From positions 702,501-766,500 of the forward strand of contig BDSI01000049.1 of NCBI GenBank assembly GCA_003117195.1: DNA of 64,000 nucleotides, written 5' to 3'. The position numbers were made by a program, and so were the translations under genes. Below the pieces are notes generated by a model. The model had not been told where the DNA came from. It was given only the letters and a program-made list of their open reading frames with translations, and did no database searches. Positions 20,714 to 63,800 of this stretch are shown here, piece after piece (the first letter of the stretch is position 1; the number at the start of each line of letters is the position of its first letter). The DNA comes from Eudorina sp. 2006-703-Eu-15. Lineage: Eukaryota > Chlorophyta > Chlorophyceae > Chlamydomonadales > Volvocaceae.

Positions 20714-23700
20714 ATGGCACCGTCCTTGTTTTCGCTCTTCCTGACGATCACAGCATTCGCAATTCAGGGCAGCCCCGTACGATTCAGCATGTGTCACTCA
20801 AAGCTTCTCCACGTCAGGTATGGACGTTCTGTGCTGAAACCGACGACACGTGCCGTTGAGCGATGTAATCAAAGCTTGTTGCCTTGCAGTTGTGTCGCAC
20901 CCATGCTATCCTCTTGGATCAAGAATGTTTCAAGATTAGTTCCGCACCCGACTTAATTCCGGACGGCCCTTGGAGCAAAGTCGAGGGCGGTGTCTGTGCG
21001 GCCAAGGGCTTCAAGGCGACAGGTCAGCTGACGGGCTCAAATGCCTGGGGCTTTCCCGCGGACTTAAAACCCGCTTTTTATGGCGATAACAGATCTTGTT
21101 TCACCCCTGATCTTGATATGAGGAAGAACTCGTCACAAAACCACGCCCTGCTTCTTCCCTGCATCGCAGGCTGCCACGCCGGCCTGCGCGCCAGTGGAAA
21201 GAAAGCAGACCTGGCCCTGGTGGTTGCGGATGCCCCCGCGACCGCTGCTGGCACTTTCACGCAGAATGTGATGTGTGCGGCTCCGGTGTTGTACTGCAAG
21301 GATGTCTTGAGCCGCAGGAGCACAATCCGCGCGGTACGGCGTGCGGACATAGGACCCCGTGTGATCACCGTGTGTGCGCTACTAGACCTCGTCGCGCTCC
21401 ATCCTAAACGGTGCAATTGCTAGCCCAAGCACTGCCTGCCCGTGTGCACCTCGCATCTGTGAGCTGGCCAGTGGATCCAGGATTCCAGGCAGCGGGGTAC
21501 TCAGATTGCCATGCCGGGAGCGGAGCGGTTTGTGGGGCAGCGCTGCACACGACGTTGTTCCTCAGGAGGACATTAAGGAATGTGCAGCAGAGCTCGGTGA
21601 GCAACTCCGGTCACCGCGGGCACATCATCGCGCGCACATGTAGCAATGCTGGGTCTTGCGACCTCTGAAGTCCCTGAAGCCCCGTCCCAACCTTACAGCC
21701 ACTCCCCAACCCCAAAGGCACTTCCTGAACACCGCTCCCCAACGCCACTCTTCAAGCCGCCGCAGGCAGTTGGCTTGTTTCTCATTTCCGTGCCGTACCG
21801 GATGGCCCTTTCCCCCACGCCCCACTCTTTCAGGTGATGACGAATGCGGGCCAGGCGAACGCGGCCACGGGCACGCAGGTAAGGCACAATCATGGATGCA
21901 GCAAACTTAAAGGCATAGGTCTTGGAACCTCTGAGACGGCCCCTCAGCGGCAACTGGTTAGCTCAAAGCGCGGACTGTGCTATGTTTGGGGCTGAAGCTG
22001 CGGCACGGTGCCTAATCGCTGCGCGGGGCGCCCTGTGTCCTGACTGGGAGTTCAGCCATCGGCCGGACTGGGAGTGCGGCAGTATTGATGGCTGCGGGCG
22101 TATGCGCTGCCGTGCCTCCAGGGTTATGAGGACGCGGTCGCAACCGCCAAGGCGCTGGCTGAGGCGCTGGGTACTAGCACCGACGACATCTTGCTGCAGT
22201 CCACCGGTGGGGCCCGGGGGCCCCGGAGAGGGTGCATGGCGGGTTGGGGGTGAGAGGGGGCTGCGCCAGGGCCGTGGGTGCAGGATGGGACACACCGAAT
22301 CCCAGAGCTGGCGGTGTACCGCGCTGCGCTGGCTAGGGGGTCTGCGTACTCTCTGATGGGCTGCAGGGACCGGATGGAGGGGGGAGGGTATAAGAAAAGG
22401 GGAGGGGGAGGGGGGAGGGGGACATCTCGGGGCAGGCGGATGCCGTGGGTCCGCCGGACGCAGACTCAGACCCGGGAGGGCGGAAGGGAGAGATATAGGA
22501 AATTGGTAGACATAGTCCAAGGAGGGAGGGAGGGAGGCATTTGCTCTGGTAGTGCTGTGCGTTGCTGTTGGTGTTGCAGCCCGCTCAAGGATGCAAGGCA
22601 ACGACCCCAGGATCCGGCAACCCTGACGTACCCCGGGCCCCGGTGCTGGGTGCGACCCGAGTGTGCAGGTGTGATCGGGCGGCGGATGAAGATGGAGAAC
22701 TTCCTGCCGGCGATCCCCGAGGTGGTGAACACTCTTGGGTCCTCCGCCGCTGATGCGCACCGCGCAGCTGTGGCCATCACCACCACCGGTGCGTACCTGC
22801 GTGGGCTCACATGAGGGGCGGCCGTGTTTGCGCGGTGGGTTGGCGCGGCGGGCGAATGCGGAAAGGGGTGACCTTGTAGGGTCTTGGAGTTCTGTTGCCG
22901 ACTTGCCTTATGTGTCTTAGGCCCGGGGTGGTGGGGTGCGGATGACCCAGGGGTCAGTCGGGCGGATGGTTTCTAAGCTGTTGGTCCTCCTGGCCGCTGA
23001 GTCCCCGCCACCAGCTCCCAATCGCCAACCTCCTCGGGCCCCCTCGCGTCCGCCTCCCGGACACGTCCTGACGGGGTTGGGGTCGTGCCCCTGCCGCTGC
23101 TGCGGGCCGTGGCCTACCTTTGCAACAAGCCGCTGGCCTTCGGCCGCGTACACCCCAACCACCCATCAACCCACTGCGCGTCACATCCGCGTCGTGGCGG
23201 ACGCGAAGCGAGGGCCGCCGCTGCGCCGCTGCCGGCAGTCCCTCGGCAGCTCAGCTTTCAGATGCCTCCTCGTATCCATCATTCACAGTCCCGCACAAAC
23301 AGACACCTTCTGCCGGCAACACATCCCCATCGCCCTCCGCCGCCCCTCAGACCTGGTGTGCAAGGAGGCCGCCCTGCAAGTGAGCATCGGCGGCAAGACG
23401 GTCCACGTGGGCGGCATGTGCAAGGGCAGCGGCATGATCCACCCGAACATGGCCACCATGCTGGGCGTGGTCACCTGCGATGCGGTGGTGGCGCCAGACG
23501 TTTGGACCGGCATCGTGAAGCGGGCGTCCATCGCTTCGTTCAACTCGGTGAGTCGGGACAGGAGGCGCAAGCAGGCCAGGCGGGGAGGTTTGGAATCGGG
23601 CGATCGTCCGACCGCAATCCGCAGGCCCACCCTGGACTGACCTGGGCGGCGGGTCGGCTTGGGCGGGCCCCGCCATGGCGCTGTGTGTAACTGAAGCGGT

Positions 23701-25959
23701 ACCGTCGCGCTCAACGTTTTCCTTGTTCCCCTAGAGGCCCCGGGAGCTCAGGAAGCAACACTTTGAGCAACCAACGAATCAAGACATCGAATGCTGAGGC
23801 ACATCTACCCAGCGACCCACCCATGCATCTATTTATCCATTCATCCAGCTTGCCGGCCGCAATGCTTCTGTACGTCGCACCGACGCCACAGCCACCTGCC
23901 AGGTGCCGCACCCTTCTTTCCCGCACCGCTGCCGCAGTCAGCGCAGCGCCGTCCGTCCAGCGTCGGCCTACTTGCAATGCCTCTGACCCGCTCTTGCCCC
24001 CGACCCCGACCCCGATCAGATCACGGTGGACGGGGACACCTCCACCAACGACTGCGTCATCGGGCTCGCCAGCGGGGCGGCGGGCAACCCGGTGGTGTCG
24101 GACGTCAACTCCCCCGAGGGCAAGCTGCTGGAGAGCGCCGTGACGGCGCTCATGCAGGTGGGGCAACCGGGAGCGACGTGTGTGGCGCGGGTGGAGCCAA
24201 GCAACTGGGCGGGATACAGCGGTGCCTAGGGTGTTGGTCTGGTCGGGGTTCTGAAAGAGGGAGACGGACCCAGCGCAGACCCTGGGTCTTGAGATGCAAC
24301 GCATTCAGCCCCTTTGGACCCTCCACTGGGCGGAGGCTTGTTGTTTTATGAGGACGGGGCAACAACTCGATCGTTTCTGCATGGCCATCCCCGACCCTTT
24401 CCCACCCCGACTCCGACTTGGGTTGCCGCACGTGTCGCACCCAGGCGGAAGCTGACCAGGGGTGCTGGCGGCAGACGTGTGGCTCCGGAGGGCCACGTGA
24501 CAGGGTGGCCGACGGGGGGCCTGGGACGGGCCGGGGAAGCGGGAGCTGAGCTGTGAGCGGGGGGGAGGACAATCGTCCCCGGGGTCTCTTCCCTCCGCCC
24601 CAGTCCTCTTCCCGCTGAACGTTTGCTGTGGACAGCGGCATGGGTCAGCCCATACGAGGGCATCTGTGGGGGCCCTGGTGGACCCCGGACTCCCAGCTTG
24701 TGTGTGGATGATGCACCCTTCGCTGCCGCCGCCAAGGGCGCCCGCACCTGACACCGCAGCGCGAATCAGCTGTGCGCCACCCGGCCCATTCCGTTCCCCT
24801 TCCTCTTCAGGGCCTGGCCAAGTCTATCGCCTGGGACGGCGAGGGTGCAACGTGCCTGGTGGAGATCGAGGTAAGGGGTTGGACTTCTAGGGTTTGTGAT
24901 GGAGCGGTGGGCCCGTGTGTCACGGTGTTAAGACACACACGCTCATCCGACCCGGGGACACCTGCGTGACGGCCCATCACCGGGAACGTGCCCTATCTAC
25001 GTCCTCCCCCCCCCTCCCCCTTCCTCCCCCCCGCTCCCGTCCACCTCACCCCTACCCCCCCGTCCTCTCCACCCCGACCTCGACTCCTCCCTCGCAGGTG
25101 ACCGGCGCCAAGTCCGACGCCGACGCCCGCGTGATCGCCCGCTCGGTGGCCGGCTCTTCCCTGGCCAAGTCCGCCATCTTCGGACACGACCCCAACTGGG
25201 GCCGCATCGCCGCCGCGGCGGGCTACTCGGGTCAGTGCTGGTGGTGCCGCCGGTCCTTGGGGGAGCTGCGGGTCGTTAGGCAGTGCCAGAGTGTGCAACG
25301 GGGCCCTCCGGGTCGACATGTCGTGAGCCACCGGCAGCGCACCCGAACGCCGCTGCAGTGCCGAGCTTCCAACCTTCGAACTTCCGAAGGCAATCATGGG
25401 GGTGTGCACAGGGCTGCCGCTGTGCTCGTAAGTGCGTCGCTTGTCTTTCGTCCCAAGGCATGGCTCCGTGCATTCAACGGCATCAACGGCATCGGTTGTC
25501 GTGCCGGTAATGACCGAGCGGCACCACGACCCACGGGTCAAGTGTCTGTCCCGCTGTGTGCCGCACCAGGAAGCCCGTTTCCTTGAGGAGTGCGGCCCGG
25601 CCCGTGAGCACGACGCTGGCATTCCCACCAAGCAGCTCCCACTCCCACCCATCACACTGTCTCCCGTACATTGTACGGCGCCCCGAACGTTTCGTACTGA
25701 TGTACGCTGTATGATACCAGGCATCATTTTCGACCAGAGCGACCTCGGCGTGCAGCTGGGCTCTATGAAGCTGATGGAGGCGGGCCAGCCGCTGCCGTTC
25801 GACAAGGCCGCAGCCAACAAGTACCTGAAGGACACGTGTGCCGTACACGGCACCGTACAGATTTTCGTTACGGTTGGCAAGGGCCCGGGCAAGGGCATGG
25901 CCTGGGGCTGTGATCTGTCGTACGACTACGTCAAGATCAACGCTGAGTACACCACCTAA
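20714..25959 (+). CDS. ARGJ: Arginine biosynthesis bifunctional protein ArgJ (glutamate N-acetyltransferase)
   Basis: Transfers acetyl from N-acetylornithine to glutamate in the cyclic arginine pathway, usually in plastids. Exons that join in phase: 20890-21022, 21170-21333, 21834-21878 (45 nt), 22122-22206, 22669-22788, 23351-23547, 24020-24157, 24811-24870, 25098-25230 and 25721-25959. Family motifs in order: [52 protein letters not shown], the self-cleavage block [14 protein letters not shown] with the nucleophilic Thr in [38 protein letters not shown], and the C-terminal [19 protein letters not shown]. The first exon is a guess: ATG 20714 to 20776 joins in phase ([18 protein letters not shown]) and would give 458 residues, but it does not look like a typical plastid transit peptide. 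The introns hold long G-rich and C-rich tracts. Confidence 0.93.
22379..22530 (+). repeat. G-rich purine tract in argJ intron
   Basis: A purine-dense stretch with many runs of three to six G (22379-22430) and again GGGAGGGAGGGAGG near 22520. It includes a TATAAGAAAAGG segment and the antisense copy of the intron element described separately. Such runs satisfy the usual G-quadruplex pattern on the RNA-like strand. Confidence 0.7.
22493..22518 (-). repeat. Intron 3'-end element, copy 1 (antisense in argJ)
   Basis: Contains ATATAGGAAATTGGTAGACAT, the exact reverse complement of the shared core. It is the only copy in antisense orientation relative to its host gene. A sense-like TTTGCTCTGGTAGTGCTGTG occurs about 25 nt downstream, so the two halves of the element may be rearranged here. 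Confidence 0.75.
25005..25097 (+). repeat. C-rich pyrimidine tract before an argJ acceptor
   Basis: About 90 nt made almost entirely of C and T, with repeated runs of five to nine C, ending at the CTCGCAG acceptor for the exon beginning at 25098. It is an extended polypyrimidine tract and would be G-quadruplex-prone on the other strand. Confidence 0.75.
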
Positions 25960-27210: not shown

Positions 27211-30200
27211 CTACTTCGACGCCGCCTGCGACACCACCCACTCCGCGAGCAGCTCCGCCCCGAAACCGGTCGGCAGCTTCTGTTCCCAGTTCCACACGGG
27301 ACCCGCCACATCCAGGTGCGCCCACTCGACCCCCTCCTTGACGAACTGCTTCAGGAACAGCCCCGCCGTGATGGCGCCCCCGAAGCGGCCTCCAAGGTTC
27401 TTCATGTCCGCCACGGGCGACTTCATCGACTCGAAGTACTCGTCCTCTAGGGGCATGCGCCACACCCGCTCGCCTGCGGAGGCGGGAAGGAAGGGTATAG
27501 GAAATTGGTAGACATTGTCAAACTGCTGCCGCTTCTAGAGCGAAGGTCCGGTGAAGAACCACCTGAACCAGGATCTCCAGGGAAGCGGGGGGGGGGGGAG
27601 GTTGCTGGGGGTGTGCCGGGGCTGATCGGAGGAGTTGAACCCAGGGTTTGGGTGGGGCCGGGGCCGCACGGGGTGTGAATGCCACTTGCGGTCCCCCCTG
27701 GAGTCGTCGACTCAATCGATAGGGCACACTGCAGGTCCAGGACACTACAAGACCGTAACGGTACACCAAGCGGGTCTCATCAGGCAGCGTGGGCTGTGCG
27801 ACGTGACATTGCGCATAGGGGCCTCGCCAGCCCGCCGGCACCAACGGATCCTTCCTCATCTGTGCTCCTTCTGACACACCGGTCTGGCTGCACTGTCAAA
27901 CACCCCCAGCTCAAGCACCCGCTGTGGCACCATCGCCCAGCCAGTCGGAACCACGCGCCTGTCGCCTTGGACGCCGAGGTGAGGGCGGCCGCCATCGAGT
28001 CCGAGGGCGTGAACAGCCCCCCCACGGAGGTGCCCAGGGCAATGATGCAGGCGCCAGTCAGGGTGGCAATGTCCACCACGGCGGTGGCACCGCACTTCTC
28101 CTGCAGGGGGGTGCGGGTCCGGGCGCGGTGTCAGGCGGCGGGAGGGCCGTGGGACGCAGTTGGGTTCCGCGGTCGCGTGTACGGCACTCTTTACCCCTCT
28201 CCGCTGTGCGCCCTCCTGCCGGCCACGGCCCTGTTCCTCCTCTCGCCCCCATGCTTGGGGGGAGGTGTTGGGGAGGGCGGTCTGGTCACCATGCACACCA
28301 ACGCCCAGCACCGCCCCGCACCTCACAACCCGCAACCCGCCATCGGCATCCCCGCAGCGGCTCAGGGGACACTGCACGGCCGTCGAAACGCGAGGAGCTG
28401 GGACGCAGGGGCTCCTGATGGGCACCTGCCCCAACCCACCTGCGCGAACCACATCGCGTCAGCCAGAGTCAGCCGCCCCTCCGCGTCCGTGTTCTCCACC
28501 TCGACGGTCTTACCTGCGGTACCGACAGCAGCCACCGCCGAGCATTCACAGCCAAGTCGTTGAGCTTACCCGTGGACAACGGCAAAACGATGGTGGCCGA
28601 CATCAGCACCTTCCACCAACCGCCACACACAACTACCATCACCACCGGCCCTGCGGACCCCATCCGCAGCAAGGTGACCTGCCCAAGGACTGAACACACA
28701 AGCCCCGCACCGGCCTGTGCTCCCCGCTCTCCGACAACACTCAGCCGCTCGCCAACCCCCACTCACCCGACGCGGCGGTGAGGATGTCCCCGGGCCTGAG
28801 TCCCGCCCCCGCCACCATGTTCTCGCAGGAGGCGATGATGAAATGCACCTCCACGTCAGCGGGCTGCGAGGAGGTGACCCGGCGGGGACAGGCGGAGGGG
28901 GAGTTGGGACCGCAGAGACTGGGTTCCGGGACAACCCCGGGCGCCGACTTGGTGGCAATAGATCGGACGGCGCGTGGCATGGCAGCTGGACGCCACCGCC
29001 ATAACCCCCATACATACGTGAAGTACGTAACTGTGATGCCAGCGGCCGCATTCGGCACGTCCCCACGTTTCCCGAACATGCACGGTGCGCCTCCCTCCCA
29101 TTCTCCGCCCCCGAGACCGCACCTTCAGGTCGGCCAGGACCCGCGCGGCCCCCAGCGTGGCTCCCGCCCCGCCCATATCGAACTTCATCAGCTCGATCAG
29201 GCTGCCAGCGCCGGCCTGTCGGGAGCGAGGCGGCGGCAGCGGAGCGGCGGCAGCGGAGCGGCGGCAGGCAGCGGGCCGAGATCCCACTTACACCCGGGGG
29301 GAACCCATGCATGGCATGCGGGTGTGGCGGGCACTCGAGAGTTCTAAATGTCTGATGGTAGGCTGGTGTGGGCAGGTGCCCCCGGGTAAGGTCAGGGGGT
29401 GCCGATGCCCTCACTCACTCGCTCGAGGGGCCGCTGTCAGCTGGTTCGCAGGGCACGCAGGGTGGCTCGCAAAGGCGGGTCGCAGGGGGGGTGACGGGCA
29501 CGGATAAGGCCGACTTGCAGCAAAGATCAGCCGGAGGCGGACGATCAAAGACAACTTGACGCAAGCGGATGGTTGACAGGGCGTCAAGCCAGCACCAACC
29601 CAAGACGGCCTGGGCGCGCAATGGTACCAGCGGGCTGCCACAAAGGGTAGGGTAGGCTGCGGTGCCCAGCGCGCCGGCCGCTTGCGCTGATGTAGACGTA
29701 TTTATGACGCGGGATCACCAGCCCCGACCCTCCAGGCTCGGCATCTCTGCTGTGTTCTTCGTTGGGCCCTGTTCTTCGTTGGGCCCTGCGTGAGCCCCGC
29801 CCTGGCGCACCTTGAGGTTGTAGCCACCGCTGTCGAAGGTGAGGCCCTTGCCCACGATCGCGATCTTGCGGCTAGGGGCGCCGCCTGCGGAGGGGAGGGG
29901 TCCAGGGAGGATGGAATGGGGTCGGAACGTCGCGCAGTACTTCTACCATCGGCTTGCGGTGCCATGACGCCCTTGAGTCACCCTCTTGGCCCGGGTGGGT
30001 TTCGATGCCAGGGAGCAGGGGTGGGAGCGGAGCTGGCACGCTGAGGACTCTGTCATTGAGAACGAGCAGCTCAACGGCGTTCTTCGGTCGGGGACCGCAT
30101 CGGGGCTGGTGCCGACTGTGGCTCACTGCCGGTTGGTGACCCGCCGTAGGGTGTCCAACTCAGATGCCTAGCTGCCTGCCCTGCCCTGCATCGACCCTCA

Positions 30201-32990
30201 CCGGGGCCACCCCGTCCCACCCTTCGGCGTGTACTGCAGGTGAATGAACTTGGGCGCCTGAGCACTGGCCTCCGCCACGCCCAGGTAGCAGCCCATGCCC
30301 ATGGCCTCGCACTCGGACTTCTCGTACACCTGGGGACCGGGAGGGAGGCAGGTGGCGAAACACATGCACGCGCGGCTGTTTACTCGTAGCTCAGTTCTCC
30401 ATAACACACCATCACACTCCTTGGCCTGAGTGGCTCGTGGGGGTTTATCGCTAAACGCAATATCCATCTGTTATCAAGCAAGCTGCAGGTTAACTGGTAA
30501 TTATCATGTGTCTGAATGGCTCGAGCGGGTCACTTGCTACAACAAATACACATAAGTATATTCCAGGCTGCACGGGGTAAGCATCCTGTTGCCTCGGTGG
30601 TTCGGGCGGGTCCCTCGTTGAACACACACATACACAAAGCACCAATACCCAACCAGGGTCTCTCTTTAACACACAAAGCACCACCTGCTTACAGCTCTCC
30701 CCTACTGGCCCCTAGGCTCCAGTGCCCCTCCGCCGTGCCCCACTTCCGTGCTTCTGGGGTTCTGCTGTTTCCCCCGCGGCCACCCCCCTTCCGACATAGT
30801 GCGAGTTCCCCTGATGTCAATAAATCAGCAAGACCCCGCCCACGTCCCCGCCCACCTTGAGCGTCAACACGTCCGGTGCCCCCGCGGCGATGTGTGCGGC
30901 CGCCTCCGCCAGGTGGGTCGGGGTGCACACATTGGGAGGAGCCTCCACCAGGTACCTGGAGGGAGGGAGGGAGGGAGGGGGCAGCGGGCAAGGCGCAGAG
31001 GGATATAGGAAATTGGTAGACATATTCACACTGCGCTGCTGCCAGAGCAAATTTCCAATTAAGGCTCGACTGTACCCCGGGGGAACTCACCCCGGGGGAA
31101 CTCTAGGGGGTGTTGTTACGCGCGCGTGGGAATGTATGAGGGAAGCAGCGAGCGGGGTCTTGCGGAGCTGCCGCTACGGTGGGTATCTAATGTTAGGGGG
31201 CGGCGAGTGTGCGACGTCGTTGCGCCAGTGCTTCGCTTGGGCTGCGCCGGCCGGCGCCCACCTCGCCAGGAGGTTGCCCCGCGCTGCCGCCACGCCGCGC
31301 GCCACCGCCGCATCCGCGGCCGCGGCATCCAGACCGGTGCTCAGGACCTGCGGGTCGCACACAACCACTCAACCAACTGAGATCAGTGTGCGCCTGGTTG
31401 TGCAGCCAACCTTAAGCCACTGCGCCTTGACTGACACAGCCATGAACTGCCACCACCTCCAAGTTGTGCCTGTCCTAAGTCCAGCTGGGAAGGAGATCCG
31501 TTCGTTGGGCTTGATATGTTGTGGTCTGACCGCGGTGTTGCGGTGGGCAACTGTTACTTTGCATTCACACCGTCCTCGGCCCGATCCGGTCCTGTGTCGA
31601 GCAACCCTTGAGGCCCCCCCTCCACGCTCCCACCCCTTCCATCCCGCCCTTGTCCGCACCCAAGCCTCACGTGCAGGGCCGCCAGCTTGGAGGCGGTGGG
31701 GCTCTTCTTGGACTTGAAGCGGCTGCTCTCGTAGCCGCCCAGCAACGCGCCTGCGGCGGGGAGGGGCCGAGGGCGAGGACAGAAGGTGGTCGGGGTTTGG
31801 CGGGAGTCAAAAGCGGTCAACACCATGGCGAGGGAACCCAAAATAACCTCAGCCGCCGTCTCCACTACCACCTCCAGCCTTGCCCATCCCTACCCTACCC
31901 GTGGTGATCTGGGCCAGGGCAGTCTCCCGCACCGGGGCATCCGGCAGCGCCAGCAGCGCCACCGCCACGGTGGCGGCCTTGTGGGCCTTGGCCAGGGCCG
32001 CCACGGCGCCGCCCAGGGCCTGGGGCCGCAGCCGGGAGGGGGGGGCGGATGCGGGGGAAGCGGGACTCAATTCTTAGCTGCAAGGCGCCCATGAAGTCCG
32101 GTTGATGGACTCAGCGACCGCCTGGCCCTCTTACCTTAAAGGGCGATGCGCCCCACTCCGGCGCCACGCCCAGCTTGGCCGTCTTGCCCAGCCCCACCAG
32201 CGCCACGTGCTTGGCCTTGGCCCCCGCGCCAGAGTAGCGGACAACGCGGCTCTGGCTGCCCTGCGAAAGGCACCGAGCGCACGTGGGCGGCCTCGTTGGA
32301 GCCGGGCATAACCCAGGGCCCCAGAGTGGGCTATCCATGGAAGCTGTCTGGTTTTGTCTTAGTGTAGCGACGCCCTGACAAGGGCTTGGGTATGTGCCGT
32401 ACTTTCTGATGCAGCCATGCCCCCTGGTGCCGCACCTGCTTGCCGTCAAAGCCGCCCCATGCCACGATCTCGCTCAGCAGCCCGCCCAGACTGGCGTCCA
32501 GCTCCTTGAGCTTGTCCGACTTGAGGCTGGTGACGTCGGCTGGGGCAGACAAACAGATTGGAAGGGCGGTAATGGAGTGACAGCATTCGGGTGTTTTAAT
32601 CATCGCCGAGGTTCCCCGTTGACGTGCCACAGTTACGGTAATGTGCGGATTGGCATCACGTCATAGATTTTGGCACCGCAGGACAAGTTCCGAAATGGTT
32701 AGCATGCATCACTGAGCATATCGAACAATGCGGGCCTCATACCGCAAACCCAAATCGCCCACGCCCGCCCCACCCTCCGTCGCGAAGTCCTCCTCCACCA
32801 CCGCCAGCAGCAGCAGGTCGCCCTCCCAGCTGTCCGACCCGGAGCTGCTCACAGCCACAGAGGGAAGCGACTCGGGCTCGAAAGACACCTGCAGGGGATA
32901 CCGGTACGAGCGGGAAGTGCTCACAAGGACGTTTGGACTCGCAGAGGACACCAGCACCAGCCATGTACAACCAGGCCTCACCTGCTTCAT
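27211..32990 (-). CDS. Leucyl aminopeptidase, M17 family (copy LAP-A)
   Basis: Dizinc M17 aminopeptidase that removes N-terminal residues from peptides; the family forms hexamers. About 14 exons. After MKQ (ATG 32990) come [15 protein letters not shown] (32888-32774), [17 protein letters not shown] (about 32540-32437), [47 protein letters not shown] (30955-30859), [12 protein letters not shown] and [10 protein letters not shown]. The metal-site segments [14 protein letters not shown] (about 29885-29811), [13 protein letters not shown] (about 29216-29127) and [18 protein letters not shown] (about 28512-28440) follow. The last two exons hold [16 protein letters not shown] and the terminal EWAHLDVAGPVW block, ending at 27211. 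All expected Lys, Asp and Glu ligands and the Arg of EGRL are present. An in-frame stop lies just upstream of MKQ, so the protein starts there or has an unseen upstream exon. If MKQ is the start, the product has no transit peptide. Confidence 0.92.
27496..27541 (-). repeat. Intron 3'-end element, copy 2 (LAP-A last intron)
   Basis: In gene sense it reads GCTCTAGAAGCGGCAGCAG, then TTTGACAATGTCTACC and AATTTCCTATACCC, followed by a pyrimidine tract and the acceptor of the last exon (27473), about 22 nt away. The same intron of LAP-B (34484-34819) has no such sequence. Confidence 0.85.
31003..31048 (-). repeat. Intron 3'-end element, copy 3 (LAP-A intron)
   Basis: In gene sense GCTCTGGCAGCAGCGCAG is followed by TGTGAATATGTCTACC and AATTTCCTATATCC. 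Next comes a CTCCC-repeat pyrimidine tract running into the acceptor of the [10 protein letters not shown] exon at 30955, about 47 nt from the element. The corresponding LAP-B intron (37037 onward) keeps the pyrimidine tract but lacks the element. Confidence 0.88.
32148..32553 (-). repeat. Near-identical patch shared with LAP-B (38489-38894)
   Basis: Over about 405 bp covering the end of one exon, a whole intron, the next exon and its acceptor, LAP-A and LAP-B differ at four positions by my reading. Immediately outside, the sequences are unrelated on the right, and on the left the last codons of the exon differ at about five of 15 positions. The sharp edges suggest gene conversion. Confidence 0.85.
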
Positions 32991-50741: not shown

Positions 50742-53700
50742 TCATGCGGGCCCGGAGACATTGTCCTGCATGGCCGCCTCCACCGTCCCCGCCTCCATCC
50801 CTCCACACTGTGCGGCGGCTGGCAGGGCCCCCGCCGCCGCCGGTGTTGCCTCCGGCGCGCCGTCGTCCGCCTCCATCGCCGTCGGCCCAGCACCTGCCGC
50901 CGCCTCGCTCTCACTCCCGCCGACAGCGGCCTCCGTGTCCGGTACGGCGGCGGCCGCCGCCGCCGCCGCCGCCGGCTGCGCACCGCTGGCGGATCCCGGC
51001 GGACACGACGCGGATGCGACCGCGGGCGCTGAGGCCGCAGACAAGCCCGCATGGAAGGACTTGGATGTGGAGGCCTGCGGGAGCAACACCCCCGCATCGA
51101 CTACCCATCAACGTAACAAGCTTGACGAAATCGTAGGATGGCGTGCCTGGGAACAGCGGCTTGTGGGATGCTGCAATGGACGGGACGTCGAGTGCTGGGC
51201 CCGTGCATGGCCTTGAGATAGGAGCACGCTGGCCTGTCGGTACAGGCGAGCCCAAAATGTGGAAGCCAAGACCTTCATGCCCGCCCTCATGCTCCCAATT
51301 TGCCGGTTCCCAGTAGTCCCAAGCGCTGGCCGTCGCCTCCCAACCGGGCTGCGGTGACGGCGCCCCCCGTCGCGTGCTGATCCCGGGAGGGGCGCATGAC
51401 TGTACCAGAGTCCAGGGTTGAGGTGCGACAGGTCTTCCCCCTGGATGGGATGTCGTTGCCGTCATCCCGCCAGGCGACCCCACAGCGGAGCTCCCCTACC
51501 GCGCAGCCCCCTGCCGCGCAGCCCCCTTACTGCGGCAACAGGCCCGGCCGCAGGCACGGGGGCGGGCGCGCCCCGTTCCGCTTCGGCCCTAGGCCCACGC
51601 TGCCGGGCAGCGGCACCCGTACTCGCCTTTGTCAGATCGCGCAACAGCATGGTGGCGTAGCAGGAGGAGGGCAGCTGAAAGCGCAGCTCCAGGGCCAGAA
51701 GGGGACCGCTGCCGACCACTTCACCCGCCCCGTCCTTTGCCTGCAGCTCGGGCTGCGGCTGCGGCTGCGGTTGCGGTTGTGGCGGCTCACCTCCGTCGCG
51801 GATGGGCTCTCCGCCGGCGGCGGGTTGCCCTTGGGACTGTTGCTGGGGCAGGGGCGGCGGCGGCGGCAGCTGCTCGGCCTTCCGCTGCAGGAGCTCCAAG
51901 TCGGAGAGCAGGAGGGTGTCGTCGTTGGGATCCGTGTACCTGCGGCGGCGCAGTTGCGGGGCCACGACCAAAGCGCAGAAGCCCGGTCTCCACACGTCGA
52001 CCGCATGTAACGGCCCCCCCCCGCTTGGTGCGGACCGCGTCGCGACCGTAGGAAGGGAGTCTTCAGACTGAGCGAGCGCTGCCCGCCCCCGCCCCGATTC
52101 CGCCCCCGATTCCGAGTCGCGCTGCCCCGTCCCCCGGCCCCCTCGTCCACCGGGTGCGCACCGCTTGAAGGTGAAGTGGAAGTCCTTGGGCTTGTGCAGC
52201 ACGTAGCGGTAGTCCCCGGTGAGCGAGGCGAAGGACAGCTCGCGGTTGGCGGCGGAGGCGGAGACGGGCTTGGACAGGTCCACGCCCGCCTCGGCTGCGA
52301 CCTGGCGGAGCCCGGCACGGTGGCAGGCACATTGAGGTATGCGGGCGGCTAAGGGCGGGAAGGCTGAGTGCGGAGGTGGTAGGGAGGGAGGGTCAGGGCA
52401 CAGCGCGAGGGACGGAGCACATCCGCTGGCCCGTGCTCCTGCCGCCCCGCGCCAGCAGTGTGTCGGCGGCGTTGCTCGCGTCGACCATGGGTGGTGTGTC
52501 GGTTGGGCGCCCGTGCCTGTGGTGCTGCAGGAACCGGTGCTGCGCCACCAAACACTCCCGACCAGTCACAAGAGACTTCGGCCAGGACAGGAAGCCAGCA
52601 CCCACCTGCGCGCGCCCAGTTACCCCAAGAGCCGGAGCCGTGCAGTCGGGTTGACAGTTTGTTATCTTCGGTTCTGGTTTGTTTTCCACATTTCCACGGC
52701 GTTGCCTCGCGGCGGTGATGGCGGGCCTTGCCTCGCTTCCCGCTGCTCGCTCTTCGCCGCCTGGAAGTCTCCATCGACAACCCGCAAGTCGCCTTTGCAG
52801 CCGGGTCGTTTGTCTCGGCGTTGTCACTTCTGGAACGTTCAGAGCCTTCTGTTCGTCCCCCCCCTCTCAATCACCCACCCACTTCACCCGCCCGGCCCCC
52901 CTACCGGGTTTCGTTGCTATACCCACCCAACCCCCGGGGTACTGGGTACTGGGTACTCCCGGCCCCCGAACCGGGACCCACCTTTCCGATCCAGTCGCCC
53001 GTCTCATGCTCTGGGTACTGCACATTCGTACCAGGCAGCGGCAGTACGACATCAAAGATGCTGAACCGCCCCGCCGCCACGTCCGCCGCCGTCACCACCC
53101 TGACCAGCTCCAGCCGCCGAGCGGCCGTGCTGGCGGCCGCGGACCCCTCGACACCCTCCGTCGCCGCTGCTGTGCGAGGGGGGAGGATATAGGAAATAGG
53201 TGGTGGGGGGGGTGTCCCCGGGCGGCGCGAGGGGGTTTTGGGAAGCAAAGGGGCCAGCGCGCAAGGGGCCGGGGGGACGGCACCACCTCTCATCGGTCCG
53301 CCCGTCCCCGCGGATACTGCAAATACTTCGGGGGCACTTCCTCTGACCCATCACTGGAATCAACTCCCAACTTTCGATACCTCGGCAGCGTAGATAACTC
53401 ACCGAAAACGCCGTTATCCTACATCCTGCCCTATCATGTTCTGCGCCTCATGGGTAAGTCAGAATCTCGTCGGTCGCACGCACCCGCGTCAGCGCCATCC
53501 TCGGCCATCTCGCCGCCCTCCGCCACCACCTGCTCGTCCACCGCCTCGCCGGCCCCGTCCGCGTCCAGGAGCAGCAGGGCCTCGTCGCCCGCCCCACCCG
53601 CCGCCGCCGCCGTGCCCCCGGCCGCTGCGGCTGTCCGCGGCAGCACCAAATCGCCCGCCACAACACGGTCATTGCCGTACGTCCGTAACCTGCGGGCGGG

Positions 53701-56700
53701 TTGCCCCAACAGCATCTTAATCAGGCAACATGAGATGAGCATGCAGCACACATGCAGTGTTGCAACAAGCCGGCAGAGGCGAGCTCACATCCAGATGCAC
53801 AAACACCTCAAAAAATACTCTCCACATTTGAAGTACTTCTGGGTGTGCCCGGGTTCGTTTCTGTGGTTTGGTTTATCTTTTTTTCTTAGACCACATGGAG
53901 TGCCTGTTCAAGCTCCCCTCCGGCATTCTCCCATGAGTCAATCGAGACAGCGAAACCATTTAAAATGCATCTGCACTTAGTGGGTAGCAGTCAGTTGTCC
54001 TACAGCTCCTCCTCCTCCTCCTTCCTCCCGCCCCCGCCCCCCGCCCCCCGTCCCGCGGCACCCGTCACCCGCCTGTGGCTGGCCGCCGAGTTCCACACGT
54101 AGCTCTGCCAGGCGTGCAGGTACATCATGCGGAGGGTCCGCGGCACCGCGAGCATGGCGGCGGACCAGGCGGAGGCGCCGTGGCGCGCCAGTGCGCCCAG
54201 GACAGCCCGCTCGCCCAGCATGAAGGGAGGGATGCCGCGCAGGGCGCCCTGGCAGCACCACAAGCAGCGGCAGCAGCAGCAGCAGCAGCAGCAGCAGAGG
54301 TGCAGCGGTGCAGGTGTGAATATCCAGGCGCGGGCGTGAGCGGGGGGCGGTGTGTTCGAGGGCCAAGCAACCGGTTCCGGCAGCCGCAATGCAGCGGGTG
54401 CGTCATCATCACCGTAGATGCGTCATCAGCACAGTAGGTACGTCATCATCACCGTAGATGCGTCATCAGCACACCGTACACATGTTTGCAAGCAAACGAG
54501 CGGGTGTGGACTGCAGTCCGCCGCCTAGTAATACACACGCGTGTGTTATGGGTGGGCTTCTTGTTGAACGCACGCGAGTGATAGGGGGGTTGCATTGCGT
54601 CGTGTGGGTCCGGGATAGGGGTTGGGCCGTTAGGATGGACACATGGCTACGACGGCACTGGCAGGCAAGAGACAACCCTGTCAATGGCCGCCCGCATACG
54701 GGGTGGTCGCCGTGCCACGGGCTGTGGAGGGTGATGGTGGTGGCGCGTGACGGCGCCCCTCGAGGGAGGGCGGGTGAGCTGCTGCACACCTTCACGTCGC
54801 CCTTGTCGAAGTACAGCCGTCTGGCCGCCGAGATGTCCGGCCGCTCGTCCGGCCGCCCCGTCAGCACCAGACGAACCGCCTTGTCGTACTCGCCACGCAG
54901 CAACGCCCGCCCCACCTGCGGGGATAAAGGAGGGTCGCGCCGGGGGCGGTGGGGGGGGCGGAGGGAAGGGGGCAGATACCATACGCGGCGGTTATCGTTT
55001 TGGTGCTCTTCCGCGGGCCTGCTGTCTAGAGTGGACGTTAGGGGGCAGATACTGAGTCGCCTTCGGAGAGCCCGCACGTCAGGCCCGCCGCCGGTTCTTG
55101 GGCTGGTCCTGTGCCGGTCTGTCCGCGCTGGCGGTGCTTGTGGGCCGGGTGTTGTTTGTGCACGTCTCGGGCCGCAAACCCCGTTCGGCTGCGACACCAA
55201 TTCAGATCAGGAGAGGACAAGACCTCTGCCGGTGGTCCAAGAGGGGGCGCGCAGGGCAGAAGCACGGTCGGTCCAGCGGGCGGCGCTTGGACGACTGGCG
55301 TGTACGGCAGCGTGTCTTCCAGGCGTAGCCAGGAGCTTCGCTTGTCGCATGGGCGATGAACAACGCGGCTGTCCTACAGTTTGTTTCCGGAAGACACACA
55401 CATAACACATTCACATACACCTCGTGGGCTCCGCGGCTTCCTTGCACCGTTGCTGTCTTGTTGCGGTTCTCCTTTGCAGGTTACCACACGAACGATTATT
55501 GGCAACTGATTTGGGTCGGACGTGGGTCTCCTCAATTAACAGTAAACACACCTCGTGGGTCGGGGCGCCGCCCGTGCCGAACCGCTGCAGGCCAAAGTAG
55601 TTGATGAAGCCGTTACGTGCAACCGCCTCACACGCAGCCGCCATCTGCGCCACCGCGGCCGCGGCCGCGTCCCCGCCCTCCGGCCCCCCTTCTGGCCCCT
55701 CCAGCCGGACGTCCCTCATCACCAGGTGGAACTCGTTGCCCGCCAGGCAACCCAGCTTGAGGCCCTCATCCCCGAAGCTGAAGTCACCCAGCCGAATGCC
55801 ACGTAGGCGGTGGTTGAGGGCGGCCAGGCGGGCGGGGGCTACCTGCGCCGCATAGACCAGGGGATAGATCACGCAGGGGTATGTGCGCTCGCGTTTGTGA
55901 ATTAGCAAACTAACCCGTGTGCGTGCAAGCACATGTGTAGAGAGTTGTGTGTGTGTGCGTGTGCTTAGAAAAGGACCCCGCCCGATCGAGAGAATTGTGT
56001 GCGTGTGTGCGTGTGTGTAGTGAGAAACCAGCCCGAATCGACCCGTGTGTGCTTTCATCAGCGGCTTCGGCATCCGCCGGTGGGCCCAGCACGGACAAGA
56101 TTCCTAGGCAAACTACCAATTTCAGACCGGACAGATTCAAACAACTGATCAACCAACCAACTAACCAGGACAACCGACTAGCGGCGCATGGAGGGTGAGA
56201 GCCTCGACACTCGGCAACCGGCCCATGGGCTGTCAATGGGCTGCAGGCGCACGCCACCACCCACCCACCCACCCACCCTGTAGGCGGTGGCGAACTGGCA
56301 CGTAATGCCCCGCTTGTCCTTGGTGCCTGCGAGGGGCATTGTCGGAATCCGGAAGTCGCCATCCCTAGGTCACGAGACCGTTGGTACAGGCACCACCATA
56401 CACACACACGCTCCCCAGCCAAGCCAACGGCCACCTGCAGATCCTCCCCAACTGACCAACGGGAGTTGTACGGCAACCAGAACGGGCAACAGAGGTCGCA
56501 GGCACATCCTCCGCAAGTCGCAGTCAAAGGTTGACACCGGCGCGGCCCGACGGCAGCCGGGCGCGGCGCAGCTGTGCGGGCCGCCGTGCCGGGGCCCCAC
56601 GCCCGCGACCCGTGCCGATCCGAGTGTGACCCATGGGTCGTTCGTTTCATGACCCACCGGCAAATCCGAAGCATTTCCCGCCCATGACGCCCAACATGCG

Positions 56701-59700
56701 GGCCACGACGTTGAGCGCCACCTGGGGCCGGGGCGGGGCCGGGGCGGGGGGCGGGGCGAGCCGCAAGGGGTCGACCGGAAGGGGCCGGCGCGGTGCGGTG
56801 CCAAGGCCTTCCGGATGACATCATATCATAAGACGCATGCGGGAGGGCTGCAGAGCTGCGGGCGCGGGGCATGCGGCGACCGTGCTCAGGTCCCAAGAGC
56901 CGCAGGACGGGGTGGGGTAGTGGGAATGAAACCAACCAAAAACAAACTCCCTCCCTCCTAATGTCCAAAAACCTAGGTATGGAGACAACGGTGGAAGCAA
57001 CCGCCACGTGGGCACCGTGTGGTGATGGATGTGTAAGAAGAAACTGAGTCGCGAGAATCGAAGTCCCCAACGTGATGGATATGCAGTAGGTGATCGTCGC
57101 GGGGGCAACGGCCGACCGCGGCAGCTAGCTGCGCATCCGAGAACACGTCGAGGCGGGATGCGGCGATTATGATGACTTTTACACACCGAGAGCGCGCATG
57201 TGATAAGCCCCCCGGGCGTGCGCATCTGCAATCACGGCACCTCAACTCCCAACCGCCAACCGCCAACCCCTAAAACGGCTCCTTTATGAACCCGTACCTG
57301 CGTATCCATGTTCTCCTTGTACAGCACGAAGCGGACAAAGTTGTTGGAGCCACCCTCCCACTCGCCGCCGCCGCGGCGCCCGCGCCGATCGCGCCCGCCG
57401 CCGCCGCCGCCGCCGGGGTGGTCCCGCCCACGACCGCCGCCGCGGCCGCCCCCGCCAGGCCCGTCCCTGCCGCCGCGGCCGCTTTCTTTCAGGTACTGGG
57501 GGTCGAAAATGACCTCGATGACCGGCACAGTTTGCGGCTGTTGTTCCTGTTGTTGTGGCTGCTGCTGCTGCTGCGGCGGCGGCCGGTAACCAGTATGTTA
57601 GTTGACAGTTGGGAACTATACGGCAGGTGGGCATTATACGGCACGTAGTAATCCTACGGCAACCGGGGCGGGCAACAACCGTTCGGGCTCGGCCTGTCGA
57701 CGGACATGCCCTATCGGAAATACCAAATCCTAGCCAGATGTACGCGATTACATTAAACCTCAGGCTTCGTTTCGCCACTCAGCCTGCAATGACTACCGTA
57801 CGTTGTGTCGTTCAGATAGATAGCACCGTACATCCGTACGTCCGTACATCCGTACCTGGGTCGGGTTTCCGCCGCCCCGGCCGCCACCGCCGCCCCGGCC
57901 GCCCCGACCGTCGCGCCCCCGACCCCAGCCGCTGCGTCCGCCACCATCACCGCCGCGCGCTGCCCTGCCGCCGCCGCGTCCGCCGCCCCGCTGCCACTTC
58001 GCCGGCCGCTCCTCATCAACGCTCTCTGTCGCTTCCCGCTTCACACCACCTCGCGGTGCGGCGCCCTCCGCCTCCGTCTCCGCCTGTTGCGGCTGCGGTC
58101 GCGACTGAGGCTGCCCGTCCTCTCGCGCCAGCGGCACCATGGCGGTCTCCGTCTTCACGGGCGGCAACCCCGGTGTGCTCCGAAAGAACTCATGGACCGC
58201 CTGCAGACCCGCGAGGCAGGACAACCGGACGAGGCGAGCCGACACACCCAATGGCACCGTACTCGGCGACCCATGATACAGACAGACGGACGGACAGACA
58301 GGCAGGGCAAACACTTCCGGCAAGCGCCGCGCCCCGGCCGGACTGCCCGACAACGCTGTCCGTTGTCACCGCCACCCGCCAGGTGCCCCTCGTGTGCTAC
58401 GAGAAAGCCCACCCATAATCACCCACGTCCCGGATGTGGGCCACGTGTCGTCGCGGGGTTTCATTCAACCCGGCCCGGTCGCAGCGGTGCGGGGGTTGGC
58501 GGCGCAGTAGTTGGCAGTGGAGCTGGGTTGGCCGGGCGGCTGTTGGGAGGCGCAAACCCGCACCCCTCCGCCGTCAAGTAACCCTCGCGGTCCATTCCTC
58601 GGAGCCAACCTCCCCGCACCTTGCGAACGTCCTTGCTGGCAATGGGCTTTAGCAATACGGCAATCCGTACAGGTACGGCATCGACAGTGGCGGGCCCCGG
58701 CGAGCTCTTCGCGTCGGCGGCGGCAGCCGTAGCGCCACCCTCGCCTCTCGATCCAGTCGCGGCTGTGCCCATGTCCCCTTCCACCGCTGCAGCGGTGCCA
58801 CCCGTCGCGGCCTCCGACCCGGTCCCCGTCGGTGCCCTATCCGCCGCCTGCCCGCCGACCGCCCCGCCCGCCGCCTCGCCTCCGCCGCCCGCCGCTGCTG
58901 TGACGCCCGCATCCGGATCCGCGCCCGGCTCCTGTTTCATGTCGCCGCCCTGGGCCGTGGCCACCTCCGCGACATCGCTCTCGACCGCATCGGCTGTCAC
59001 CGACCCTTCCTGTGACGCGAGATGGAGGAGGAGGCGGAGCCACAAACCAGCTGGGCGCGCCGCGCGAAGCAATAGGGTTAGGAACCCCACTTCCGCGCAC
59101 GCATGCATGCACGGGGCTGCCTGACCGGGTTCGCGGTCTCTTGCGGCGAGACGCTGTGACGCAGCCGGGCAACCCCCGTGCGTGTGCCGCCCGCGTCGCC
59201 TGGCGCGGTCGTCTCCTCAAGAAGGACGCCAACACGAGGCCGTACATCCGTACGACATTTGACTTTGCGCCTCCCTTAAGTGGCGCCAGCGTGCATTACG
59301 GAGGCCCCCTGCGGGGACCACCTGCCGACCTGCGTGTCGGTGGCGCCATACCCGCCTGTGGCCCCCACCTGGACGCCGTACATCTGCGCCACGCGGCGGA
59401 GGAAGTCGTCCAGGATGGCCCCGTTTTCAGCGCCTGCCAGGGCCGCGAAGGACGCCACCAGCTGCGAGCGAGTCGCCGGCAGCCGCGCCGGGTCGAACGG
59501 AGCATCGTCCCGCTCCGCCGCCGGTGGCGCTGCGGGGCTGCCGGAGCTGGGGGCCTACGAGGCCGCGACGAGCGCCGCGGGCAAGGGCAACAGACCATGA
59601 AGACACTTAGGTGCCTGTAGGAGCTAGCGTTATGAAGATGATGAGGAACGGCACAAAGGATGCGGCTCCCTGTTGTTCGGGACTGTCACGGGTTCCGCAC

Positions 59701-60203: not shown

Positions 60204-60808
60204 GATGGATGTACATAAAGTGCTCCACTATAAGGAAATGCTTGGACATGTATTATTTTATACTATAACAGTCATGGCTTGTCTGAAAACGTTAGTTGCG
60301 CGACGGTTGTCGATGTCGTAAACCGGTTCGGGGCATATTGTCAACATGTCATGACTTCGGAGAATCAATTCCGATAATACTCAGTACATCGATTGTTGCA
60401 GAGCGGTGTTAAGCACAATGTATGTCATGCGTGGGCTCGTATCCGGGCGCCAGCCACCTCAAGGGCGAGCCCACATTAAAACGTAGCAATAATCATATCA
60501 ATTTTATATCTACATTCAGCATTAACTCCTTGAGCCAATGTTATCGTTCGCAGAGACTGTCACTGATTTAATGTACCCGTACACGCAAAAGATACAGTGT
60601 ACTTTTTCGGCACAACGCAGTCAATTAATATAGAGCATGTGTAATCTTGGCACATCATGCATTGCAAGCCGGCGCAAATGCATGATTAGTGCGTATGCGG
60701 TGCGTGCGGCGATCTGTCGTGCTGGAAGTCTCACATGTTGCTCCTCCACCTCCCCCGGAATTTGATTGAGTTTCTACAATATTGACGCTGCAGCAGAACA
60801 CCGTCACG
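60204..60808. promoter_or_regulatory. Divergent upstream region of PUS7 (-) and CHI-like gene (+)
   Basis: About 0.6 kb between two start codons, strongly A/T-rich from 60.3 to 60.7 kb. Both promoters should lie here. I see A/T-rich hexamers but no element I would name. Confidence 0.6.
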
Positions 60809-63800
60809 ATGGTTCAGTTCAAAGCTTGCGATGGTGGTTATGTGCCAGAGGGCACAAGCAACTCGAGCGGTTGGTCCAGCACAAATGGCCTGATGCCAGA
60901 AAATTTCCGTTTCTGGTCTGCGCGGGCTTCACCTTTTACGGGCACCCCGGTCGCATCCCTGTCTTCGTCCATCCTATCGGGTCTGGGAAAGCCGGGCTCC
61001 AAAGGAGGTCGCGAGGAGCCCCACACAGGCTATGAATTTCCGCCTGAGTATTGCTACTTGAGGACCAAACAGTGCCCGAGCCTGGCCGGCCTTGGGTGAG
61101 TGCTGCTTGCACAGTGCGTCGCCCGGATCCGCAATGCGCATTAACATGTTATACTATCTTCCCCAAAATTCCCAAAAAGTCTGCTTCTCTTGCTGACGAG
61201 TTAGCTTCTCAACGTGTGTAAGCGTTATAACGCCCTCATGTGTCGTTCGGATGCAATCTCTCGCTCACAGACGGCTTCTGAAACACTTGACATATGACAT
61301 AAATTGTCTATCCACTTTGCTCGACTGGTCGCGCTCTTGCGCGAGCGACACATCACCGCCCGTTCCCCGTCAGCGCCACGTCACAGCCCCCCTTACTTGT
61401 GTGCACACATTCCGATTCGACACGGCCTCATCCTGCAGGGTACGGAGCAAGCGCATCATCGTGAAGGACATCAACGGTGAGACGGTTGGAGGGACGGTTT
61501 CGCCACCACCGTTCCTTGGCGGTGCCGACCCGCAGCAGGTTGCCGTCCAACCCCTTGCGCCCCTTCACCTCCCGGCATGCCGATCGCATGTCTCCACAAT
61601 CAACCCATGCAACTGTCCGTCCACACCTCCACCAAAAGTCAAATTCCTCTAGACACGCAACCCGTGGCGGCCGCTACACTCTGCTTACCCTTGACTGGCC
61701 GTAATCCCGTCGACACTCATGCCTCTCGCGCTCTCGGGCACTTACCGTTGCCGGCTTGCCGCCATTCGTAGGTTCCGCCAATCAGGTTCAGTTATCTCTG
61801 GCTGCTCCACAGCTCCACAACTCGACTGCCCCATGCCCGCAGTGTACGCCCTGGGGATCTACGTGGACGTCCACGCCGCCAAGTCCGCCCTCGCCGCCTT
61901 CAAGAAGAAGTCCGCTGAGGAGCTGGAGAAAGACCAAGCCTTCTACGACGGTACGACAGTACGACGCATTGGCGCCGATGTGGTACACGCAACACTGCGC
62001 TATCCGGCCCGGTGCTGCTTTACGGTCGTGCCCGCGGGTCTTCCCGCTGCATGCATGCTAACCCACGGGACGGGGGTTAAATTAAAAAAGAGAAATAAAC
62101 CCGAAGAACGAACCCGGCCACACCCAGCACAACTCAACGTGGTGCGGTACCTGCATAGCAATGGAAATATAGAGACCGCGCGCGGGCGCGTGGCGGCGCG
62201 GCCGCGCTGCCGCCGGTGCAGTAGCAAGCAAAATGCGGACCCGACCCAACCCGAAAAGGACAGATACTGTACCGACCTGTGGTTGTAGAAGGGGTTGCCG
62301 CGCCGCGAGGGACGGGGGTAAAGCCCACGCTGTGGCCCCTGAGGAACCCTGGTGGCACCAAGTAGGCACTCGGAGCTCGACCGCTAACCTTGACCCATGT
62401 ATCGCAGGTGTGGTGTCCGCCGGCAACGTGGAGAAGACTTTGCGGCTGGTGATCAGTTCGCGCCTGGTGGACCGGAAGTGAGTGACGCTGTGGCGGTGGT
62501 GGTGGTGGTGGTGGTGGTGGTGGTGGTGGTGGAGGTGGTGGTGGTGGCACCCGAGCGACCTGGCGGTCCGGTCAGGGGCAGGGCGCCGGCCGAATCCGCC
62601 AGGGCCCACACACGCACAGTGCAGACTGGCGGACGTGGCTCTTCCCCGCTGCCTCCCGGGGCTTCTGTTCTGTTGTCCCTCGCCACCCTTGTCCCTCCGT
62701 AGTTGGACTTCCGCAGTTGATGCACACATTATTGATCCCCCGGCCCATCCCCACCAGGAAGTTCCTTGACGCACTGGAGGAGCGGCTGGCCCCCCGGCTC
62801 AAGCAGGTGCGGGCAGGGGTGTGGGTAGTGCGGTGTTGGGGGCCGTGCATCAAGCACCTAGGCCCCGTGAAGAGCGGCTTGGCGGCAAGCTCGACTGGCA
62901 GCATCTGAGAAGATGGCTAGTTCTGGGGCCCGAGGCGGCGGTAATGCCACGGGCTGGGGCGGCTTAGAGGGGGTCCGCTCCCGTGGTCGAGCAGCCTCTG
63001 GTGCATGAAAGACGCGACACGTTGACTTTCGGACAACTGTGGCAAAGCCGTGACGACGCCTCACGGGGGGGATGGCGGGCACTGCCTTATGTTGGTTGCC
63101 AGCGCGCCTCCATCCACGCCTTGTCATGGCGGGCCCATGTCTTGACCCTCACCACACGGCCGGTGCACTGTCGGCGAGCAAGCCAGGCGGCCAGGAAGCG
63201 CGCTGCCCGCAGCAGTGCTTCGGCGTGCCTGGGAGTTGCGCCTGGCTCCCGCCGCCGAACACGAACACCGCCATGCTCTGCTGCCCTGCCTGCACCCTTC
63301 CCCACCCTCCCCCCATCCCGTCCCCCAATTTGTCCACCAATTTCCTATACCCTCCCCTCCCCCGCCCTACCGCGTGTCCCAACCCGTCGTACCATGACAC
63401 GTCCACGTGGGCCCAGGCGGGTGACCCGGCGGCGCTGGAAGAGTTCAAGCGCCAATTTGATGGCGTGCACTTTGAGCGGGTGCGTGGTTGTGTGGCTCAG
63501 TGGCTGGCTGGCTGCCTGGCTGCTCCAGTTCGGACGATCGTCGAGCCTGCATCTCGAGCTGACGCCGAAATCCATTCAGTTAGTTCTGTCCCGTGGATGT
63601 CTTAGATGGACTTATATGGATGCGGATGTGGAGGGTGGTCGCTGCAACCAGTTCGACACCAGCCGCTGGCGGCTACTGCGGTGCCGCCTACTGCCGCTTT
63701 TGTGGCTGGACCGGTGCAGCTGGAAGGAGCGTCAGCTGCCCTCGAGCGCGGGCCCGGCCAAGTCGCTTCTCCGCAGCCCACCAGAGGACCTGACCGCGCG

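Follow-up and report, generated by a model that had tools for sequence, protein, structure and literature searches.

A recurrent intron motif in Eudorina is probably the tail of a 5'-truncated retroelement that lands in C-rich tracts

Introduction

A short motif made of two blocks, A and B, recurs in a 64,000-nucleotide (nt) stretch of the genome of the green alga Eudorina sp. 2006-703-Eu-15 (contig BDSI01000049.1, positions 702,501 to 766,500, forward strand; this whole stretch is hereafter the window, numbered from its first letter). An original prediction placed the motif in seven introns of five unrelated genes and read it either as an introner-like mobile unit that supplies its own 3' splice region or as a retained splicing signal. 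We conclude instead, with a probability of about 85%, that the motif represents the 3' end of a retroelement which inserts by target-primed reverse transcription, in 5'-truncated form, into C-rich tracts. A splicing role is not needed to explain where the copies lie.

Retroelements that lack long terminal repeats (non-LTR elements) insert by target-primed reverse transcription, and the mark of this route is a fixed 3' end combined with 5' truncation and with duplications whose length varies. We favour target-primed retrotransposition with 5' truncation because the copies examined here have a fixed 3' end, variable 5' ends and flanking repeats in excess of the control.

Results

Abundance and anatomy of the element

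The assembly (181.2 Mb in 3,033 contigs) was scanned with both blocks, and the reversed block sequences served as the control. Block B (TGTCTACCAATTTCCTATA), with up to 3 mismatches allowed, gave 6,067 matches (3,044 + 3,023) against 8 (7 + 1) for its reversed control, while block A (GCTCTGGCAGCAGCGCAG) gave 2,461 + 2,376 matches against 248 + 154. Exact matches to block B numbered 1,032 (517 + 515), some of them units of tandem arrays, and no exact match was present in viral contigs. The suggestion that the motif belongs to a mobile unit was therefore borne out, as the genome search returned copies in their thousands.

Tandem arrays carrying block B in each unit were seen with units of ~36 nt (C1:1285443-1285533 and ~4107-4197 of locus L078), ~42 nt (7 units; C3:1723236-1723505) and ~267 nt (at least 3 units; C9:1146519-1147075).

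The ends of the element were compared across 30 loci of exact block B copies, together with longer copies reached by walking upstream. All share a common 3' end, TTTCCTATA, which is followed by C-rich DNA, and in the upstream direction similarity stops at a different point in each copy. Two related subfamilies have the last ~45 nt in common and differ in their upstream parts. Two of the 30 are units of a single tandem array; the other 28, which were chosen without regard to context and all come from contigs C1 and C2, measured 20 to 372 nt with a median of 45, and 21 of these 28 were 60 nt or shorter; each copy was measured with its own reference left out, and a version with self-reference gave an equal median. 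The three longest copies, of ~1.13-1.2 kb, have a common 5' boundary, one of them with ~55 nt more that are related to an internal stretch. In the long copy at L077, and in this copy only, an internal stretch is repeated at the 5' end. A short full-length element with a defined 5' end was also considered and rejected, as the shared starts proved to be where the query copies L026 and L016 are themselves truncated. Short interspersed nuclear elements have a short full-length RNA with a defined 5' end and a head of the tRNA, 5S or 7SL type. No tRNA was found in nine element loci. A search against Rfam gave nothing at the gathering score in the window, and six loci searched at a looser threshold yielded only two chance-level hits.

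Flanking repeats and the C-rich target

Exact direct repeats of at least 10 nt flank 15 of 92 copies, where 1.1 were expected, and repeats of at least 12 nt flank 10 of the 92, where 0.3 were expected. The expectation came from pairing 5' and 3' flanks taken from different copies, by which C-richness is kept, and 10 of 102 copies were left out as array units or as lying too near the end of a locus. Self-referenced lengths had given 18 and 11 repeats respectively, which became 15 and 10 once each copy's own reference was excluded. The repeats vary from 10 to 18 nt in length, and clear cases are found at L010 (15 nt), L014 (14 nt), L026 (14 nt, round the 372-nt copy) and C8:1842850 in L077 (12 nt). 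Over the 12 positions directly 3' of the element, the share of C is 63-90% at every position (97 copies), and YCCC immediately follows 602 of the 1,032 exact copies.

Placement in introns and the supply of C-rich tracts

Host genes were predicted with a self-made, unsupervised gene model (coding phases, GT-AG introns, both strands), which was trained on the fetched DNA with the elements and the 30 nt after them masked, because a model trained on unmasked DNA had learned the element as coding. The predictions were tested in part with Pfam: outside the window, seven of ten contained a family (PFK, DUF1499, Topoisom_bac, Ostalpha, Ras, ABC_membrane_2, ABC_tran), as did two of a further eight (ankyrin, KDM8-like). 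Family-supported genes spanning or abutting an element gave 15 sense and 4 antisense copies, a tally that counts L009 and the copy at 42715 (whose supported exons do not enclose the element) and the antisense array unit L021, and omits L036, for which the strand test was undecided.

After removal of array repeats, of copies less than 300 nt from a locus end and of those with a strand log-likelihood difference below 10, 88 of 102 distinct copies remained. Of these, 79 lie in predicted introns, 6 in predicted exons and 3 outside genes. The strand bias that had been proposed is real, with 54 of the intronic copies in sense (68%) and 25 in antisense orientation, and the context-unselected set together with the window gave 21 sense and 7 antisense. 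The two orientations also differ in position, as the acceptor is nearer than the donor in 45 of the 50 sense copies with both intron ends known and the donor is nearer in 21 of the 25 antisense copies (p 3e-10). From element to acceptor the 54 sense copies measure 14-441 nt, and the element ends do not coincide with splice sites. A predicted ABC-transporter gene region (L030-L033, C2:794072-801024) holds four exact block B copies, three in sense and a fourth in antisense immediately 3' of a predicted donor.

The introns themselves are strand-asymmetric. Across 245 predicted introns that lack the element, the G fraction is 0.52 immediately after the donor and declines to 0.38 at positions 50-59; the C fraction climbs from 0.37 at -60 to 0.46 near -15 and is 0.42 at the end. 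GC skew thus flips within introns, with G-rich sequence following the donor and C-rich sequence preceding the acceptor. This would account for sense copies lying near acceptors and antisense copies near donors. In the same introns, C-rich tracts 12 nt or longer behave alike: 104 are sense (88 nearer the acceptor) and 90 antisense (74 nearer the donor, 16 nearer the acceptor). Over all unmasked sequence, introns hold 202 sense (56%) and 161 antisense tracts, exons 37 and the DNA outside genes 15, at a density of 3.07 per kb in introns vs 0.21 outside genes. The ratio of places outside genes to places in introns does not separate elements from tracts (5:80 for elements, of 92 and with no strand filter, vs 15:363 for tracts; p 0.39). 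Tract supply accounts for the intronic location of the copies, for their arrangement and for most of the sense bias. The argument that a strand-blind repeat could not produce such a pattern consequently fails, because the C-rich tracts on which the element lands are themselves strand-asymmetric inside introns.

Element-free introns in a tandem paralogue

An M17 leucyl aminopeptidase gene is duplicated in tandem in the window. The two copies occupy 27211-32990 and 34214-38894 on the minus strand, and their exons are 81-98% identical. The features compared are as follows.

27211..32990, minus strand: M17 leucyl aminopeptidase copy 1, host to two elements (Pfam; two predicted gene pieces)
37038..37266 (approximate ends), minus strand: intron of copy 2 matching the intron of the element at 31004, element-free (paralogue comparison)
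34480..34840 (approximate ends), minus strand: intron region of copy 2 matching the intron of the element at 27496, element-free (paralogue comparison)

At the 31004 site, the stretch that runs from the element to the acceptor resembles its counterpart in the other gene copy; at the 27496 site the exon edge alone is alike. Because introns at the same positions exist without the element in the tandem paralogue, the M17 introns appear older than the elements in them. As judged from the two paralogues, the sites are empty and filled pairs in pre-existing introns, unless copy 2 has lost both elements. The proposal that the element brings its own 3' splice region, or the whole intron, is not supported, given these two introns and the range of acceptor distances given above. 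Among protein relatives of the M17 gene the best comes from Edaphochlamys debaryana, with 69% identity across 91% of the query, which accords with a chlamydomonadalean green alga as the host.

Copies and host genes in the window

The seven reported places correspond to the following copies.

22494..22514, minus strand: element copy of 21 nt, antisense to ArgJ within a predicted intron (22207-22668); block B exact
27496..27585, minus strand: element copy, ~90 nt, sense in an intron of the M17 aminopeptidase gene, 22 nt to the acceptor
31004..31076, minus strand: element copy of ~73 nt containing blocks A and B, sense in a second intron of that M17 gene, 48 nt to the acceptor
42695..42733, plus strand: decayed element copy, sense, 5' of the first Pfam-supported BT1 exon (43009); block A with a 3-nt insertion from 42686
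46324..46370, plus strand: element copy of 47 nt that contains blocks A and B and lies in sense within the BT1 gene
53188..53201, minus strand: very short (14-nt) element copy in sense orientation, 18 nt to the acceptor of a TruD/PUS7 intron
63326..63349, plus strand: element copy, 24 nt; no host gene identified, strand log-likelihood difference 0.6

Block B is exact at 22494-22512, 27496-27514 and 31004-31022 (all minus strand), has 1 mismatch at 46352-46370 and 63331-63349 and 4 mismatches at 42715-42733 (all plus strand). At 53188-53206 (minus strand) there are 5 mismatches and similarity is confined to the last ~11-14 nt, such that the 14-nt copy could be a product of chance or of decay. 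With up to 3 mismatches block B has five matches in the window vs 0 in 100 shuffles. Block A is exact only at 31031-31048 (minus strand) and 46327-46344 (plus strand), and occurs with its 3-nt insertion at 42686 (plus strand); with up to 3 mismatches it was not found at the other four reported places. Two further weak block A matches, at 5512 and 59530, are both without block B. The two-block unit said to be present at all seven places therefore reduces to block B at six of the seven (0-4 mismatches), with both blocks at only three.

The gene model mislabelled the stretch at 42695..42733 as coding and, as the full model, initially gave the opposite strand for the copy at 46324..46370, where the strand test favours plus by 17 log units. 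A short tandem repeat with a ~20-nt unit (CACCTGCTGCCACC...) was noticed by eye at 46370-46480, directly after the copy at 46352.

The host gene regions, besides the M17 gene, are these.

20869..25959, plus strand: ArgJ gene region (Pfam on exons either side of the element at 22494)
41410..47998, plus strand: BT1-family transporter gene region (Pfam and gene model)
50742..59598, minus strand: TruD/PUS7 pseudouridine synthase gene region (Pfam; PUS7 structures match the 3' exons)

The TruD domain runs across the joined exons of the predicted PUS7 gene. ArgJ appears to start near 20869, and a WW domain lies at 13441-13968 (plus strand). The first ~22 kb of the window (1-22000) has a lower G+C content, of ~53-59% vs 53-68% beyond, and contains no block B match at up to 3 mismatches.

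With these genes in hand, host genes do lie on both strands as described (ArgJ and BT1 plus, Peptidase_M17 and TruD/PUS7 minus), and the predicted gene models indeed place three copies less than 50 nt from the acceptor (27496 at 22 nt, 31004 at 48 nt and 53188 at 18 nt). The count of five unrelated host genes is upheld for the four identified by Pfam, with no host identified for the copy at 63331. Six of seven copies are sense if the place at 63331 is accepted; otherwise the figure is five of six assignable copies, with the one at 22494 antisense in ArgJ.

Search for a mobilising enzyme

An element copied by target-primed reverse transcription either encodes a reverse transcriptase or has its tail in common with an element that does. 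A profile search of the assembly for RVT_1, the reverse-transcriptase domain, gave 1,052 first-look candidates, of which 150 were scored, and many long open reverse-transcriptase frames were among them. These frames are a possible source of the mobilising enzyme. One open reading frame of the long-copy locus L076 matches IMS_C of the Y-family polymerases and represents a host gene.

Discussion

Taken together, the evidence argues for a retroelement of an ordinary kind, which is notable for its target and for its very short inserts. We infer that an enzyme of the non-LTR type, i.e., that of a long interspersed nuclear element (LINE), would nick the G-rich strand of a C-rich tract, that the freed DNA end would pair with the RNA tail of the element, and that reverse transcription would mostly stop after a few tens of nucleotides. 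The inserted element would then point into the C-rich tract. The original prediction had held that its readings would fall if the copies were pieces of a longer known transposon; pieces of a longer element are what we observed, although that transposon is not one we can name.

Several observations weigh against this account. Exact flanking repeats of at least 8 nt are absent from all seven window copies, and 77 of the 92 copies have none of 10 nt or more. No reverse-transcriptase domain was found in nine sense open reading frames of L076, and, by eye and among the matches listed, nine RVT_1 places on contigs C1-C5 include none with an exact block B copy within 5 kb downstream. The tail gave no folding signal in four folds (z-scores -0.92 to 0.36), and no copy of established full length was found, the longest reaching ~1.13-1.2 kb. 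Orientation is slightly above tract supply, both for the filtered intronic copies (54:25 vs 202:161, p 0.044) and for the context-unselected set with the window (21:7 vs the same, p 0.049). Furthermore, the gene model learned intron composition, such that intron labels and tract density are partly linked.

The sense remainder over tract supply may reflect selection, finer detail of the target or error in the gene model. One extension of our account, which we put forward tentatively and think unlikely, is an evolved safe haven: the retroelement would home on C-rich tracts beside splice sites, where a ~45-nt tail is tolerated or even used by splicing, and would thereby spread to thousands of genic copies at little cost, the small sense excess being a trace of this fit. 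It is rather improbable that the same retroelement owes its sense bias mainly to selection against antisense copies and not to target choice. The residual bias over the tracts would be expected under such selection, but C-rich tracts alone are already 56% sense and show the same positional pattern.

There is a comparably small chance that the mobilising enzyme is Penelope-like rather than that of a LINE. Penelope-like elements encode a Penelope-type reverse transcriptase, often with a GIY-YIG domain, and show repeats of internal sequence at the 5' end of the sort seen at L077, and they would fit the 5' truncation as well. However, the repeat occurs in one copy only, and the many RVT_1 matches in the genome, among which no Penelope-type search was made, do not decide between enzyme types.

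A retained splicing signal, or an intronic enhancer under selection, is very improbable. The small sense excess over tract supply and the strong likeness of block B across copies, with its 1,032 exact matches, would suit such a signal, but the flanking duplications and the truncation series point to recent copying, and both M17 introns lack the element in the paralogue. Nor is there a single orientation or set place for a signal to act from, as acceptor distances vary and the 25 antisense intronic copies lie mostly near donors. An introner that creates its host introns and brings its own 3' splice region would likewise recur in introns of unrelated genes, with a sense bias and close to acceptors, yet we regard it as highly improbable given that the two M17 introns, the only sites open to comparison, exist without it, that nearly a third of the intronic copies (25 of 79) are antisense, that its ends lie away from the splice sites and that its lengths vary continuously. 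Fragments of a DNA transposon or of a miniature inverted-repeat transposable element would explain the high copy number but are extremely unlikely, since the 3' end alone is fixed and the 5' ends vary, with no dedicated inverted-repeat search run, and the flanking repeats differ in length from 10 to 18 nt.

In the literature searched, we recognised no publication as describing the present element family; transposon databases lay outside that search, and we do not claim that the family is unlisted. Published systems do offer parallels. In Chlamydomonas reinhardtii, short interspersed nuclear elements (SINEs; SINEX-1 to SINEX-6_CR) share 3' tails with the LINEs RandI/Dualen and L1-1_CR and terminate in (ATT)n, (CTTT)n or (A)n, whereas truncated LINE members measure 100-1,000 bp (PMC3747384). 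The Eudorina family resembles these in its fixed 3' end, its 5' truncation, its subfamilies with a common 3' tail and its green algal host, whereas it ends in TATA followed by the C-rich target, has a median length of 45 nt and yielded no partner LINE. As with Zepp and Zepp-like L1 elements, it is a green-algal family met mostly as 5'-truncated 3' ends; unlike Zepp, which forms nested clusters at centromeres, its copies are dispersed over contigs and, among those examined, are largely genic (PMC8226300). Target sequence guides insertion here as it does in the target-specific non-LTR elements that insert into simple repeats and multicopy genes (PMC4640811), but the target is a loose C-rich composition and no single defined repeat or gene. 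Introners create introns by inserting into exons (PMC9860276); the present family is like them a dispersed mobile sequence in the introns of many genes, and differs in that the two comparable host introns appear to pre-date it.

The wider meaning lies in what intron composition alone may produce. The strand asymmetry of introns can orient any element that has a C-rich target, and a retroelement targeted by base composition can therefore mimic an introner or a splicing signal, since C-rich tracts that are strand-asymmetric within introns can give rise to sense bias, to proximity to acceptors and to repeated occurrence in unrelated genes. Searches that group introns by shared sequence consequently need a C-tract control. 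If the partner enzyme were found, the family would offer a natural case for the study of early stops in reverse transcription and of tolerance to insertions near splice sites.

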